NCBI GenBank assembly: GCA_902603475.1
Contig: CACKUZ010000001.1
Span: 18,726 to 82,725, forward strand
Length of the DNA: 64,000 nucleotides
Source: an uncultured Pelagibacteraceae bacterium
Lineage (GTDB): Bacteria > Pseudomonadota > Alphaproteobacteria > Pelagibacterales > Pelagibacteraceae
Direction: 5' to 3'
The translations under genes and the position numbers were made by a program. This document shows positions 51,905-58,570 of this stretch, piece after piece; the first letter of the stretch is position 1, and every line of letters starts with the position of its first letter. Under the pieces are notes generated by a model. That model saw only the letters and a program-made list of their open reading frames with translations. It was not told where the DNA came from and did not search any database.

Positions 51905-52615
51905 TTGATTATACCGGTATTAATGTATCATTCGATTTCAGATGATAGGTCAAATCTTTCTGTGAGTGTTAATAATTTTGAGAGACAAATACAATATCTC
52001 TATACTTCTGGATTTAAAACAATACAATTTAATAGTATTGATGAAAAAATTAAAAAACCCTTAATAATTACCTTTGACGATGGTTATAAAGATAACTTAA
52101 TAAACGCACTTCCTATCTTAAAAAAGTATAATTTTACATCAATATGTTTTGTAGTTTCTGATCTAATAGGCAAGTCAAACATTTGGGATAAAAATAATAG
52201 TAATTATGTTTACAAAGAGCTTCTTTCTAAAAATGATATTAAAGTATGCTTAGATAACGGCATGTTTATAGGATCTCATGGCAAAAGTCATAGATCTTTA
52301 ATTGAATTAAATACAGATGAAATTATAAGGGAAATTAAAATTTCAAAAACTGTTTTAGAAAATATTATAGGAAATAAAATCGATTGTTTTAGTTATCCAT
52401 TTGGTAGTGTCACCAAATTATCTGCAAATTTAGTAAATAAATCTTATCATTTTGCAGTATCTACAATGAGATCAAGATTTGACACTAATAAACACAAAAA
52501 CTATTTCATTCCAAGAGTACATATGTCCAATAATTTAAATAGATTTAAACTTTTTATGAAAATTAAAACTTTTTACGAAGATATAAAATATAATGAAAAG
52601 CAGCTACATATGTAA
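51905..52615 (+). CDS. Polysaccharide deacetylase (NodB-like)
   Basis: PVLMYHSISDD; ITFDDGYKDNLINALPIL; IGSHGKSHRSL; TTG start. Confidence 0.92.
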   Translation: MIIPVLMYHSISDDRSNLSVSVNNFERQIQYLYTSGFKTIQFNSIDEKIKKPLIITFDDGYKDNLINALPILKKYNFTSICFVVSDLIGKSNIWDKNNSNYVYKELLSKNDIKVCLDNGMFIGSHGKSHRSLIELNTDEIIREIKISKTVLENIIGNKIDCFSYPFGSVTKLSANLVNKSYHFAVSTMRSRFDTNKHKNYFIPRVHMSNNLNRFKLFMKIKTFYEDIKYNEKQLHM

Positions 52616-53234
52616 TTGTAAGCATTACGATTTTTACAACAAGAATTTTCTTTATTGGGAAAATAGAATTGTTACAAGTGATGAAAAATCTATAATAAAA
52701 TATATTGAAAAACAAAACTATAAAAAAAAACTAAAAATACTTCATATTGGTGTTGGAAATTCTTATGCATATGAAAAATTGAATGTAAACCACATTATTA
52801 CTGGAATAACACTATCAAAAGGTGAAATTAAAAAATCAAAGTCATATAATGATGAAAATTATATAGTTTATTATTGTGATAAGATGTCAATGAACTTTAG
52901 AGAAATATTTAGTAAATTTAAATTTGATATCATTATTGATAATAATTTAAAATCATACTCATGTTGTCAAAAATCATTTGAATATATGTTTGAAAATTTT
53001 GTTAAAGTGTTAAATAACAACGGTATAATCATATCAAATAAAAATGGTATGAACTGGGTAAAAAAGTTAAAACCTAAAATATCATTTAACTTTAAAAATT
53101 TTTTTCATCATAAAATGAGAGAAATAGATGGTAATGTCGAGAACATATTTTCAATGGAGGAAGCTAGTAAAATAAGTAATAAATTTTCTTTGAAATTGAT
53201 TTTAGAAAATGATGTAGTCATATTTAGTAAATAA
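52593..53234 (+). CDS. Putative SAM-dependent methyltransferase
   Basis: LKILHIGVGNSYAYEKL; FDIIIDNNLKSYSCCQKSFEYMFENFVKVLNNNGIIISN. Confidence 0.6.
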   Translation: MKSSYICNCKHYDFYNKNFLYWENRIVTSDEKSIIKYIEKQNYKKKLKILHIGVGNSYAYEKLNVNHIITGITLSKGEIKKSKSYNDENYIVYYCDKMSMNFREIFSKFKFDIIIDNNLKSYSCCQKSFEYMFENFVKVLNNNGIIISNKNGMNWVKKLKPKISFNFKNFFHHKMREIDGNVENIFSMEEASKISNKFSLKLILENDVVIFSK

Positions 53235-53236
53235 TT

Positions 53237-54097
53237 ATGAAAGCAGTTATTCTAAATGCATCTGCCTGGATGATTGTTCCATTTATGGATGCTATTGCAA
53301 AATATTTAAGTTCTTCAATGGATGTTTTGCAAATTACTTGGGCTAGATATTTTTTTACAGTTGTTTTTGCCCTTTCCATAATGCTCTTTTTTGATAGAAA
53401 ATCTCTCGTTTGGAGTAAAAAACCTATGCTTCAATTGATACGAGGTTTAATCTTTGTATTTTCCACATATTTATTCTTTTTTGCAATATCTGAGATATCA
53501 TTACCTAAAGCTTTAACATTAGCATTTATTGCCCCAATTTGTGTAACCGCAATGTCACCTTTTTTTTTAAATGAGAAAGTAGGTTTAAGAAGGTGGACAG
53601 CCGTATCCATGGGTTTTATTGGTACATTAATTGTTATTAGACCTGGCTTTATAGAGATTAATTTAGCTACATTAGCAGCCTTGGGTAATGGTATTTGCTA
53701 TGGTTTTTATTTAATTATTACAAGAAAATTAAGTACCTCTGATAATTCTCTATTAACTTTATTATTTGCTGGCACAGTAGGGACTATTGTCATGTCTTTA
53801 TTTATGCCCGGTGTTTGGATACAGCCATCAAATAGTCAGTGGATTATGATGGCTTTAATTGGCTTTATAGCAGGTATTGCCCACCTTTTTATCATTTTGT
53901 CTCTTAAATACGCTGATGCTTCTAAATTAGCTCCCCTTGGCTATACTGAAATTATTACTAATATTTTGCTCAGTTATTATATATTTAAAGAATTGCCCGA
54001 TAATTGGACATATTTAGGTCTTTCTATAATAGTCCTCTGTGGTATTTATATTTCTAGAAGAGAGTATTATTTATCAAGACTCTATTTAGGTAAGTAA
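53237..54097 (+). CDS. EamA/DMT-family transporter
   Basis: ~10 TM; QITWARYFFTVVFALSIM; LPKALTLAFIAPICVTAMSPFFLNEKVGLRRW. Confidence 0.9.
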   Translation: MKAVILNASAWMIVPFMDAIAKYLSSSMDVLQITWARYFFTVVFALSIMLFFDRKSLVWSKKPMLQLIRGLIFVFSTYLFFFAISEISLPKALTLAFIAPICVTAMSPFFLNEKVGLRRWTAVSMGFIGTLIVIRPGFIEINLATLAALGNGICYGFYLIITRKLSTSDNSLLTLLFAGTVGTIVMSLFMPGVWIQPSNSQWIMMALIGFIAGIAHLFIILSLKYADASKLAPLGYTEIITNILLSYYIFKELPDNWTYLGLSIIVLCGIYISRREYYLSRLYLGK

Positions 54098-54597
54098 TAT
54101 TTACTAATATATTAATGTAGCACTTTAGATTTATACTATATATAATTGAAATTTAACGCTTTTTCAAAATAAATATAATTATAGAATTTTTTTCATTTTT
54201 TTATCTTAGTAATTAATACCTTAAAAAAAGTCTTATTTTTAATGAATTAATTTATAATTTTTTCCAAATTAGAAAAGATCTGACGAGAGTAGAGTAGGAA
54301 ATAAATACCAGTTTATAAATAAAATTAGAATTACTAAAACTTAGTGATAAATAACTTAAAACACAGGCAAATATGCCAATATTTTGATAATTACATGTTT
54401 CAAAGACATTTTATTAAAGTTTTTTTTAAATAATCATAATTAAATTTTTAGGAAAAAAAGCAGATTTTGAAATAGCTCTGCAATATTCGAATATACCGTT
54501 TAAAAGCCCAAAGTTGGGTCTATTTTAAGCATTTGTAATTTTACGGTGCAACTTGTAGGTGATATTATAAAATCAATACTAAATATTGTATATTTAT

Positions 54598-54637
54598 AAA
54601 AAAACGTTGGTATTTAACATTTTTAGAGCAAAATACC
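54598..54637 (-). terminator. Candidate Rho-independent terminator of the ogt-like gene
   Basis: Minus strand GGTATTT (54637-54631) pairs with AAATACC (54615-54609), then AACGTTTTTTT; overlaps the ogt stop region. Confidence 0.4.
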
Positions 54638-54898
54638 TTCTAATTTTAGCAATTTTCTCTTGGTTTTTATGCCACCTTTACCTGAATAACCGCCTAAAGA
54701 GCCATCAGACCGTATCACTCGATGACAGGGTATTTTTGGTGCATATGGATTTTTTCCTATGGCATTTGCCACAGCCCTCACTGCTTTTGGCTTTTTGATT
54801 GCATTTGCTACCTGAGAATAGGTCCTTACCTGACCTTTTGGTATTTTTCTTAAATGTTTCCAAACCTTTATTTGAAATTTTGTGCCTTTCAAGAACAT
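54623..54898 (-). CDS. Methylated-DNA-[protein]-cysteine S-methyltransferase, catalytic/DNA-binding domain only
   Basis: FQIKVWKHLRKIPKGQVRTYSQVANAIKKPKAVRAVANAIGKNPYAPKIPCHRVIRSDGSLGGYSGG-like; PCHRV active-site motif; 91 aa. Confidence 0.88.
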   Translation of the reverse strand: MFLKGTKFQIKVWKHLRKIPKGQVRTYSQVANAIKKPKAVRAVANAIGKNPYAPKIPCHRVIRSDGSLGGYSGKGGIKTKRKLLKLEGILL

Positions 54899-54904
54899 AA
54901 ATAG

Positions 54905-54948
54905 AAAAAAACCCTGTTTCCTTGCACCTTTTCAGGTACAAAGAACAG
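54905..54948 (-). terminator. Rho-independent terminator at the 3' end of the candidate structured RNA
   Basis: Minus strand CTGTTCTTTGTACCT-GAAA-AGGTGCAAGGAAACAG pairs over 15 bp with one bulged A and two G-U pairs, followed by GG and T7. Confidence 0.75.
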
Positions 54949-55092
54949 TAGTTTTTGGCACGTCGTTGTATGCGCTACCGCCATGCCGTCCACCCTGCAA
55001 TTTTAGCGCTACTCTGCAGAGCTTTCTGCCCTCTGGGCTTGAACCTCTCGGTTTTTCCCCAGCTGGTCAGTTAAGAGTTGCCTCTTAATTCA
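54905..55092 (-). ncRNA. Candidate structured non-coding RNA / leader RNA, family unknown
   Basis: GC 66/120 at 54961-55080 against 15/60 at 54841-54900 and 17/60 at 55141-55200; consecutive hairpins with GCAA, GAGA and GAAA loops on the minus strand; ends in hairpin + T7; TAAAAT -10-like box at 55097-55092. Confidence 0.7.
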
Positions 55093-55195
55093 TTTTAGAC
55101 AATATCAGATAGAGTAGGTTGTATGTATCACTTTATCGTTGAATATAGTTAGTTTTTCACAGGGTTGAATAATGGGGATAACTTAATCTAAAGGT

Positions 55196-55669
55196 TTAAT
55201 TAAACCATCTAAAACCTTCATACATAGCAATTCCATAAATTGAGTGTCTGATTAGAAACATAATTGATGTTTTAATGGGTATTCCAGTCTTATTTGCAAA
55301 CACTCCCTGTCCAGTAAATGGTAGAAATATCAGTAATGGAGCTAGTGTTGTTAGAGCTCCAAAAATAAAGCCTGAAAAATATGTCATTTTTAGGCCTACC
55401 ATTAAAAAACAAAAATAATAGATTACAGCCCAACAAAGCGATACATAATAGTGAAAAATCCAACCAAGTAAGACCTCATACTTAAAATTGGGCATTTGTG
55501 CAATATTTGGGTTATAAAAAGTAGCATTTTTTAGCATATAATAGGTCCATCTTCCAACAATTCCCCAGGATGGTTCAGGTATACCAATCAATTTGAGTAA
55601 ATAACCCAGAATATCAAGAATTATGCACGAAAATATTCCAGCAACTAAAATACTAATTATATCTAACAA
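55196..55669 (-). CDS. DUF2938-like integral membrane protein
   Basis: 157 aa, TM-rich; PEPSWGIVGRWTYYM and HSIYGIAMYEGFRW; TTG start. Confidence 0.6.
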   Translation of the reverse strand: MLDIISILVAGIFSCIILDILGYLLKLIGIPEPSWGIVGRWTYYMLKNATFYNPNIAQMPNFKYEVLLGWIFHYYVSLCWAVIYYFCFLMVGLKMTYFSGFIFGALTTLAPLLIFLPFTGQGVFANKTGIPIKTSIMFLIRHSIYGIAMYEGFRWFN

Positions 55670-55675
55670 ATAACC

Positions 55676-55840
55676 TCAAAACATTAATAAAAATAGTAAA
55701 ACAAATATGCTTATAAAAAATATGCCAAAAATAACCATTAATATTCGATTTTTTGTTTGTTCTTTTAATTTTGGCCAATAATTCATGATAAGGAATGTTC
55801 CAATCACAACAATTAATCCAATTATTACATATTTAGGCAT
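55676..55840 (-). CDS. Small (54 aa) predicted membrane protein
   Basis: Hand translation MPKYVIIGLIVVIGTFLIMNYWPKLKEQTKNRILMVIFGIFFISIFVLLFLLMF*; two hydrophobic segments; ends 6 nt before the DUF2938-like start; below the ORF-track size cutoff. Confidence 0.6.
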   Translation of the reverse strand: MPKYVIIGLIVVIGTFLIMNYWPKLKEQTKNRILMVIFGIFFISIFVLLFLLMF

Positions 55841-55925
55841 AAATATTCTTCTACATTAAATGCTTGACTTGTTAAATGAGTTATATTATTACTAGTGATA
55901 ATTAATTGTTATCAATAGTGATTAA

Positions 55926-56879
55926 ATGAATGAACTAACAACAGACCTAAAATTGCTTCATGAGGCAACTGTAAATAACCTCAAAAGTTCTAAAGCAAAT
56001 AACACGTTAAGAGCTTATAAATCAGACTTTAGAGATTTTGGAGCTTTTTGCATTAAGCATGGTTTTAACTCTTTACCTTCAGAACCTAAAATAGTTTCTT
56101 TATATATTACTCACCTTTCTAAAAATTCAAAAATAAGCACATTAAGAAGAAGGTTAGTATCAATTAGCATGGTTCATAAACTTAAAGGTCATTATCTCGA
56201 TACAAAACATCCAATCATTGTCGAAAACTTAATGGGAATAAGAAGAGTAAAAGGAAGTATTCAAAAAGGTAAAAAACCATTATTAATCAGTCATTTAAAA
56301 TCAATAATTAATGTAATAAATGAACAAAATATTGAGTATATTAAAAAGTGTAGAGATAAATCAATAATCTTAATCGGCTTTGGAGGTGGATTTAGACGAA
56401 CAGAACTAATTTCAATAGATCATGAAGATTTAGAATTTGTAACTGAGGGGCTCAAAATCACTATAAAAAAATCAAAAACTGATCAATTCGGTGAAGGGAT
56501 GATTAAAGGACTACCCTACTTTAATAATGAAACTTATTGCCCAATTGTAAATCTTAAAAAATGGTTAGAAGTTTCTAAAATTAAATATGGACCAATTTTT
56601 AGAAGATTTTCTAAAGGTTCATCATTAACTGACAAAAGATTAACAGATCAATCAGTAGTTTTATTAATGAAAAAATACTTAAATTTAGCAGGTATAGAAA
56701 ATAGAAACTTTGCTGGTCATAGTCTTAGATCTGGTTTTGCTACAGTTGCAGCAGAAGCTGGCGCGGATGAAAGAAGTATTATGGCAATGACTGGTCATAA
56801 GACAACACAAATGGTAAGAAGGTACATAAGAGAAGCAAATATCTTTAAAAATAACGCTTTAAACAAGATAAAAATTTGA
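55926..56879 (+). CDS. Tyrosine recombinase / phage-type integrase
   Basis: Catalytic set R (GFRRTEL), K (KKSKTDQ), HSLRSGF, GHKTTQMVRRYIRE; N-terminal core-binding domain. Confidence 0.93.
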   Translation: MNELTTDLKLLHEATVNNLKSSKANNTLRAYKSDFRDFGAFCIKHGFNSLPSEPKIVSLYITHLSKNSKISTLRRRLVSISMVHKLKGHYLDTKHPIIVENLMGIRRVKGSIQKGKKPLLISHLKSIINVINEQNIEYIKKCRDKSIILIGFGGGFRRTELISIDHEDLEFVTEGLKITIKKSKTDQFGEGMIKGLPYFNNETYCPIVNLKKWLEVSKIKYGPIFRRFSKGSSLTDKRLTDQSVVLLMKKYLNLAGIENRNFAGHSLRSGFATVAAEAGADERSIMAMTGHKTTQMVRRYIREANIFKNNALNKIKI

Positions 56880-57583
56880 TCAATCTAATTAAAAAACTTT
56901 ATTACGAAAAATATACTAAAAAATCTTACTCAATAAGCAATGTTGATTTAATTATTGATAGACTGTTTTCAAAAGTTAAAAAAGGTTGCTTTATAGACCT
57001 GGGATGTAATCACCCTATAAAGTTTAATAATACATATTTACTTTATAAAAGAGGCTGGAGAGGAATAAATATTGATTTAGATAAAGAGTCTATAGATGAA
57101 TTTAATAAAATTCGAGATAAGGATTATAATGTTCAATCACTAATTTCAACAAATATAGGTGAAGAGAAAGAAATTTATTATTATCATTCAAGGTCTGCAA
57201 TAAATACTCTTAGTAGCGAACTGCTAGAACAAAGAAAAACTAAAAAGGATAGTATAAAAATATTAAAAGAAAAAACAAACACCCTAGAAAATATTATTGA
57301 AAAATCTCCATTTAAAAATCAAAAAATAAATTTATTATCTATAGATATTGAAAACCATGAATATGAAGCATTGAAAAATTTTAATTTTTCAAAATTTAGA
57401 ATTGATGTAATTGTGATTGAAATTCATGATTTAAGTCAAAAAAAACTAGAAATTTACAATCAGTCATTAGATTTTGTAATAAATTCTAATATATACAAAT
57501 TACTTACTAATAATGGTTATAAATTAATTAATTGGGTAAATTCAGATTTTGTATTTGTTTTAGAAGATTTAAATTTAAATTAA
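56876..57583 (+). CDS. FkbM-family methyltransferase
   Basis: GCFIDLGCNHPIKFNNTYLLYKRGWRGINID; LLSIDIENHEYEALKNF; TTG start overlapping the integrase stop. Confidence 0.85.
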   Translation: MINLIKKLYYEKYTKKSYSISNVDLIIDRLFSKVKKGCFIDLGCNHPIKFNNTYLLYKRGWRGINIDLDKESIDEFNKIRDKDYNVQSLISTNIGEEKEIYYYHSRSAINTLSSELLEQRKTKKDSIKILKEKTNTLENIIEKSPFKNQKINLLSIDIENHEYEALKNFNFSKFRIDVIVIEIHDLSQKKLEIYNQSLDFVINSNIYKLLTNNGYKLINWVNSDFVFVLEDLNLN

Positions 57584-58570
57584 ATTTAAAATATCTTTAG
57601 CAACATTTTGAAAATTTGATCGGTAAAGTAAAGTATGGTTAGTAAAATGATAGGTCCAATTACGAAAAAGTTGATCTTCACTATTGTCTATAATATCAAT
57701 TAGAACTTTATCATACATGTTAGTTAAATGTGATGATGCCCCATGACATGTTACAACAATTTTTGATTTTGAAATTAAATATTCTAAATTAAAAATATTA
57801 ATTTTATCAACTAAAAATATTGAAAAATTTTGATTTTTATATTGATAAATATTTGTACTTACTTTGTGGTATTTTGACTTTAAATCTAATATTAAATGGT
57901 TCTCTTTTAAGCCAGTAGATAATATCAAGTGACATTTACTTTTGATTAAAAATTTTTCTAAAAAAGATTGTAAATTACCTATATTTGGTTGAATATTTTG
58001 ATATGTTTTAATGTAATGATCGTGAATCCATTTCTCGTCAAAATGAAATAAATTAAAATTATTAACTTCGTTAACAATACTTAAAATTTTCTGATCAGGA
58101 TTAATGTTTATATTTCTATACTTTGCCAATGTTATATTTAATTTAATTTTAAGATATGATGAAATTAATTTCAATTCGTTTATTTTATTTGTATTTCTAG
58201 GAGAATAAAAAATTTTATTAAAAAAAATATTTAAATATTTTTTATAGTTTTTCTTATTTGTTAATAAAATTTTATCATTACTTTTTAACAGTATGGAACT
58301 GATAATTGATTTATTTTTACCATCTAAGACGATAGTTTTATCATATCTTGACCTAATTATATTTAGGTAAAATTTTAAACGTTTAAAAAAATTAGACGGT
58401 ATTATAATTGCTTCATCAACAATGTCTGAGTTTTTAATGTAATTATAATTTTTGTTAGAACATATTACAGTGATATGGTTAGACTTATTATTTTTCTTTA
58501 TATTATTAATTAATATAGAAGACAAAAGAAAGTCGCCTATCCTGTCATATCTAAATATAATTATTTTCAT
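57575..58570 (-). CDS. GT9-family (heptosyltransferase-like) glycosyltransferase
   Basis: MKIIIFRYDRIGDFLLSSILINNIKK; VVTCHGASSHLTNMYDKVLIDII. Confidence 0.8.
   Translation of the reverse strand: MKIIIFRYDRIGDFLLSSILINNIKKNNKSNHITVICSNKNYNYIKNSDIVDEAIIIPSNFFKRLKFYLNIIRSRYDKTIVLDGKNKSIISSILLKSNDKILLTNKKNYKKYLNIFFNKIFYSPRNTNKINELKLISSYLKIKLNITLAKYRNININPDQKILSIVNEVNNFNLFHFDEKWIHDHYIKTYQNIQPNIGNLQSFLEKFLIKSKCHLILSTGLKENHLILDLKSKYHKVSTNIYQYKNQNFSIFLVDKINIFNLEYLISKSKIVVTCHGASSHLTNMYDKVLIDIIDNSEDQLFRNWTYHFTNHTLLYRSNFQNVAKDILNLI

Follow-up and report, generated by a model that had tools for sequence, protein, structure and literature searches.

IMES-2 RNA of SAR11 bacteria: a predicted kissing-loop core and a conserved upstream region with DnaA-box-like sites

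What does a short GC-rich block encode in the otherwise AT-rich DNA of an uncultured SAR11 bacterium? The stretch analyzed here (the window, 64,000 nucleotides) has a mean G+C content of 28% (18067/64000), and positions 54961-55080 contain 66 G+C in 120 nucleotides, a count from a preliminary description of the sequence that proved exact. No 120-nt segment of the window exceeds 67 (at 54951), and the 19 starting positions reaching 66 or more all lie inside the same block. Folding of the minus strand between 54900 and 55100 gave −76.5 kcal/mol compared to −50.9 ± 4.0 kcal/mol for dinucleotide shuffles (z = −6.41), none of the 200 shuffles being as good. The preliminary description had read the block as a previously unassigned structured RNA on the minus strand, had proposed an Rfam search that included the marine IMES families and had accepted that a confident match to a known family would remove the novelty. 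In a cmscan of the whole window, the Rfam family IMES-2 (RF02035) was found at 54955-55095 on the minus strand with 162.3 bits (E 9.2e-43; gathering cut-off, 54.7 bits), the match covering model positions 1-141 of 141; the RNA is therefore not new. The block is, with near certainty, an IMES-2 gene; it shares the stems and conserved loops of the model and is an unremarkable member of a known family.

At gathering cut-offs the window contains two families only, IMES-2 and one tRNA elsewhere, and relaxing the threshold to E = 10 at the locus returned nothing else of weight. Models of tmRNA, RNase P RNA and SRP RNA had no match at the locus up to E = 10 and none in the window at gathering cut-offs, and the 6S RNA model (RF00013) had no match at the locus up to E = 10, in agreement with the earlier failure to recognize any of these four RNAs. 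Plus-strand coding, which the preliminary description had named as evidence against an RNA, was ruled out, as the frames are open in just 0-2 of 87 distinct homologues. IMES-2 itself is already known, having been catalogued from ocean DNA, and IMES RNAs are reportedly abundant in sea-water transcriptomes. To our knowledge, no function has been assigned to IMES-2 since its description from ocean metagenomes, and a literature search by its name found no relevant paper. IMES-1 (RF02034), named in the same series of marine RNAs without a known function, is a different family.

The fold of the RNA was assessed by comparing homologues. A total of 109 IMES-2 copies were gathered, of which 87 were distinct and 63 were aligned, and pairing was scored on the Rfam structure with an added pairing between loops 3 and 4. 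Over the whole structure, including this kissing helix, 94.5% of cells are paired and double changes occur at 26 of 45 pairs, a level reached in 0 of 500 shuffles that ignore kinship. Covariation among diverged homologues, the test put forward in the preliminary description, was thus found and, together with the terminator described below, backs its call of a minus-strand structured noncoding RNA.

All four predicted IMES-2 stems were shown by the alignment to be supported by covariation. Stem 1 (55071-55088, minus strand; TTAAGAG-GCAA-CTCTTAA) is paired in 100% of cells with double changes at three of seven pairs, and its GNRA loop, GCAA, is invariant across the 63 rows. Stem 2 (55026-55070, minus strand) carries an internal loop and an inner GAGA-capped hairpin (55042-55053), with 94.4% and 91.3% of cells paired and double changes at 9 of 15 pairs; the inner loop is replaced by GCAA in copy L034 and by GCGA in L226, both still GNRA, with AAGA in L230 as the lone exception. 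Stem 3 (54992-55022, minus strand) has eight pairs, all with double changes, 96.2% of cells paired and a 15-nt loop containing GTAGCGCTA. Stem 4 (54957-54987, minus strand), with nine pairs and a 13-nt loop containing GTAGCGC, is paired in 88.7% of cells and has double changes at three pairs and one constant mismatch. Every minus-strand hairpin listed in the preliminary description is present in this sequence, although two of them take a different place in the family fold. The hairpin GCAGA-AAGC-TCTGC is not conserved (67.9% paired, zero double changes), as its two halves go to different stems, GGCAG to stem 2 and AGCTCTGC to stem 3. The second, GCGCTA (55004-55009) with TAGCGC (54972-54977), is real as a pairing but joins two hairpin loops and forms no hairpin of its own.

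GCGCTA in loop 3 and TAGCGC in loop 4, both on the minus strand, very probably form a kissing helix, as judged by comparison of the copies. Its cells are paired at 96.8%, compensatory double changes occur at three of its six positions, and one of 500 shuffles reaches three (kinship again ignored); sliding the partner lowered pairing to 57% or less. Compensatory versions include GUACUA/UAGUAC in L036 (genus g5) and L048 (g6), GCACUA/UAGUGC in L047 and UCGCUG/UAGCGA in L034, and the very divergent g2 copies L031 and L032, outside the alignment, have GCACUU/UAGUGC, with an A-U replacement. The evidence favours the helix and is good, not overwhelming: double changes are found in only seven cells, and the innermost-listed GC pair is broken in 11 of 63 rows, most of which could form a bulged 7-bp helix instead. 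The same loops may also pair between two molecules. In L034 and L047, loop 3 has lost its self-complementarity and kept its pairing with loop 4, which favours the loop 3-loop 4 contact over self-dimerization. The cmscan structure line of IMES-2 contains no loop-loop pairing, promoter or terminator, and cmscan output displays no pseudoknots; the contact between loops and the conserved control region are additions to the catalogue entry that come from comparing the copies. In purine riboswitches, two closely linked hairpins of similar length are joined by a loop-loop helix, and the part of IMES-2 formed by stems 3 and 4 may fold similarly. IMES-2 differs from them in having no constant downstream gene and no sequence relation, and it is no riboswitch on this evidence.

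The sequences on either side of the core suggest how the RNA is made. An extended −10-like element, TGATATTGT (55099-55107, minus strand), resembles TGnTAnnnT and would act as the promoter; most upstream regions have such a motif at almost the same position. Farther upstream, near the −35 region, is the conserved element TCAACGATAAAGTGATAC (55125-55142, minus strand), whose AAGTGAT core nearly all homologues retain in their different gene contexts. A regulon marker role for TCAACGATAAAGTGATAC was ruled out, as no second site with fewer than three mismatches was found in the 65% complete source genome. At the 3′ end, the GAAA-capped hairpin and T7 tract noted in the preliminary description (54905-54954, minus strand) recur as a hairpin followed by a U-rich tract in every clade folded; the hairpin sequences are unrelated between clades, so the element is kept for its shape, as expected of an intrinsic terminator. 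IMES-2 is thus predicted to be an independent minus-strand transcription unit, and probably is one, with an extended −10 promoter, an RNA of ~180 nt and its own terminator.

An ogt-like gene lies 57 nt downstream of IMES-2 in the window, raising the alternative that the RNA is a cis-acting leader or riboswitch for that gene. In genus g1 the gene order is recombinase (divergent), a small or DUF2938 gene, IMES-2, the ogt-like gene and an EamA transporter gene, and in every complete g1 locus the ogt-like gene is next on the same strand, as a leader would require. However, the terminator hairpin stands between IMES-2 and ogt, and many IMES-2-free g1 genomes still have ogt, which there almost abuts the small gene with no intervening RNA. 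In g5 and g6, moreover, the gene preceding IMES-2 has a product read as MnmA-like and the gene after it usually lies on the opposite strand, and in g2 the surroundings differ again, with the downstream gene usually on the opposite strand. The leader reading is accordingly very improbable. An RNA with its own terminator and with neighbours that differ between genera points instead to action in trans, of which we are quite confident. Two g5 copies, L050 and L052, have extra same-strand genes (284 aa and 338 aa) directly 3′ of IMES-2 and absent from their relatives, suggesting insertion. Separately, a conserved noncoding element around GGGTCTATTTTAAGC and GTGCAACTTGTAGGTGA lies between ogt and the EamA gene (window ~54480-54570, plus strand); it is also found in L200-L216 and L219, with or without IMES-2, and has no Rfam match.

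The control region extends beyond the promoter. Two head-to-tail DnaA-box-like 9-mers, TTATCCCCA and TTATTCAAC, lie at 55164-55181 on the minus strand; each departs from the DnaA-box consensus, the similarity being one of sequence only. Going towards the core, the upstream sequences of the copies have a DnaA-box-like pair, a variable stretch of ~25 bases, then TCAACnATAAAGTGATAC or a variant close to it, and last the extended −10-like element. In a set of 26 upstream regions with mutual identity below 75%, TTATnCACA with at most one mismatch is present in the first 60 bases of 25, compared to a shuffle mean of 2.0 and maximum of 7 (500 runs), and in 2.9% of random genomic 60-mers. In 22 of the 26 regions the two best sites follow one another head to tail at a 9-nt pitch. 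As the DnaA-box-like sites and the upstream element are kept across unrelated neighbourhoods, they belong to IMES-2. Location at oriC was ruled out as the reason for the sites, as the position of IMES-2 on the sampled GC skew (20 stretches per genome, a coarse measure) differs between genomes: in G015 it falls close to the maximum, and in G007 and G001 it is ~150-180 kb away from the minimum. Control of IMES-2 by DnaA is therefore a plausible reading of these motifs, to which we give slightly less than an even chance.

The distribution of IMES-2 bears on what such an RNA could do. The source genome (823 kb, 65% complete) has a single copy, and IMES-2 was found, always as a single copy, in 146 of 298 sampled genomes of the order, in 4 of 11 genera and within family f1 only; both carriers among 290 genomes of the class also belong to f1. 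A DNA pattern for stem 4 matched mainly SAR11 records labelled uncultured Pelagibacteraceae, with few other taxa listed. Strongly diverged copies (62-69 bits) occur in the complete genome G007 (1,237,371 bp), which we take to be HIMB114-like, and in its congener G001. IMES-2 is absent from many complete relatives, including G011 (1,308,759 bp; presumably HTCC1062-like) and G013 (1,456,888 bp; presumably HTCC7211-like), which shows that the genus as a whole does not require it, in contrast to tmRNA or SRP RNA. A metatranscriptome study that mapped SAR11 reads to HTCC7211 could not have detected the RNA, given its absence from G013. The absence from G011 fits the list of GC-rich intergenic regions of HTCC1062, which has no IMES-2 and in which the only region of comparable G+C is tmRNA (PMC2704228). 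Genomes without IMES-2 have no replacement Rfam RNA at the empty locus. IMES-1 was ruled out as a substitute, as no match above cut-off was found in 148 genomes of the order.

6S RNA (RF00013) was undetected in all 78 genomes of the order that were searched, while the same search worked in five controls including the alphaproteobacterium Caulobacter; it has been lost or has diverged beyond the model. IMES-2, like 6S RNA an independently transcribed noncoding RNA of similar length, could then be a functional stand-in that binds RNA polymerase. Against this, many genomes lack both RNAs, there is no match in sequence or structure, and IMES-2 does not have the promoter-mimicking form of 6S, a long end-to-end helix with a central bubble. 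We consider a role as stand-in for 6S RNA quite unlikely.

The main rival to a protein-bound RNA is a trans-acting antisense RNA, in which the GUAGCGC loops would pair with mRNAs and the loop 3-loop 4 contact would be an autoinhibited state with which targets compete. A near-identical exposed heptamer in two loops would suit such a mode, and an independent promoter and a U-rich terminator are typical of small RNAs. The loops, however, co-vary (GCGCUA to GUACUA, among others) to keep their mutual pairing, a change that fixed mRNA targets would hinder, and nearly the whole of IMES-2 RNA is structured. Antisense action is thus possible, at roughly one chance in four in our judgment, and function through protein binding rather than base pairing stands at about an even chance. 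We infer that IMES-2 is probably a compact regulatory RNA, bound by protein and transcribed in keeping with growth or replication state. In such a mechanism the kissing contact would lock stems 3 and 4 side by side into a compact fold, and the GNRA-capped stems 1 and 2 would offer further docking points. The RNA would bind a protein or protein complex in trans instead of regulating its neighbour, and its amount would be coupled to growth or replication state by DnaA or by a different factor at TTATCCACA-like sites. The most specific version, a DnaA-controlled trans-acting SAR11 RNA whose synthesis follows the state of replication initiation and whose kissing-loop core is the working part, is tentative and, taken as a whole, rather unlikely. 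If true, it would tie a noncoding RNA to replication initiation in some of the most abundant bacteria of the ocean. With defined places in SAR11 genomes, a testable kissing helix, a control region bearing DnaA-box-like sites and complete genomes with and without it, this orphan motif is now open to deletion, probing and pull-down.

The divergent neighbour of the IMES-2 block is a tyrosine recombinase gene (PF00589; 55926-56879, plus strand), so IMES-2 could also be cargo of a mobile element or its attachment site. The g1 recombinase lies ~150-830 nt from IMES-2, and the presence of IMES-2 is patchy on the recombinase tree. By parsimony on that tree, a proxy for the species tree, presence changes ~10 times, at least three of them forced by well-supported branches, so that IMES-2 has been repeatedly gained or lost. 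The recombinase, on the other hand, occurs as a single copy in nearly all genomes (123/148), including some without IMES-2, and in g5, g6 and g2 IMES-2 is located elsewhere. We therefore regard the cargo or attachment-site reading as the least probable of the alternatives. A mobile-element or phage origin is likewise disfavoured, as searches for IMES-2 in viral contigs (two patterns) and phage records gave no match.

The recombinase scored far below the equivalog cut-offs of the XerD, XerC and XerS models. Of 10 genomes tested, 8 have it as their sole XerD-type match and 2 have a second, weaker one. In three complete genomes its position is close to the GC-skew maximum, as sampled from 20 stretches per genome. 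A near-palindrome, GATAACnATTAATTATC, at 55897-55913 in the window, is present as a single copy just upstream of the recombinase in 9 of 10 genomes. Together, the recombinase and GATAACnATTAATTATC look like a candidate single-Xer/dif chromosome-dimer system of the XerS/XerH kind. A 2009 survey reported Pelagibacter ubique to be without a dif/Xer system (PMC2731167), a statement that the single-recombinase reading would correct. Genes of polysaccharide deacetylase, methyltransferase and glycosyltransferase type, which vary between genomes, flank the recombinase and IMES-2 block at window positions 51905-58570, apparently forming a variable surface-glycan island beside a putative replication terminus.
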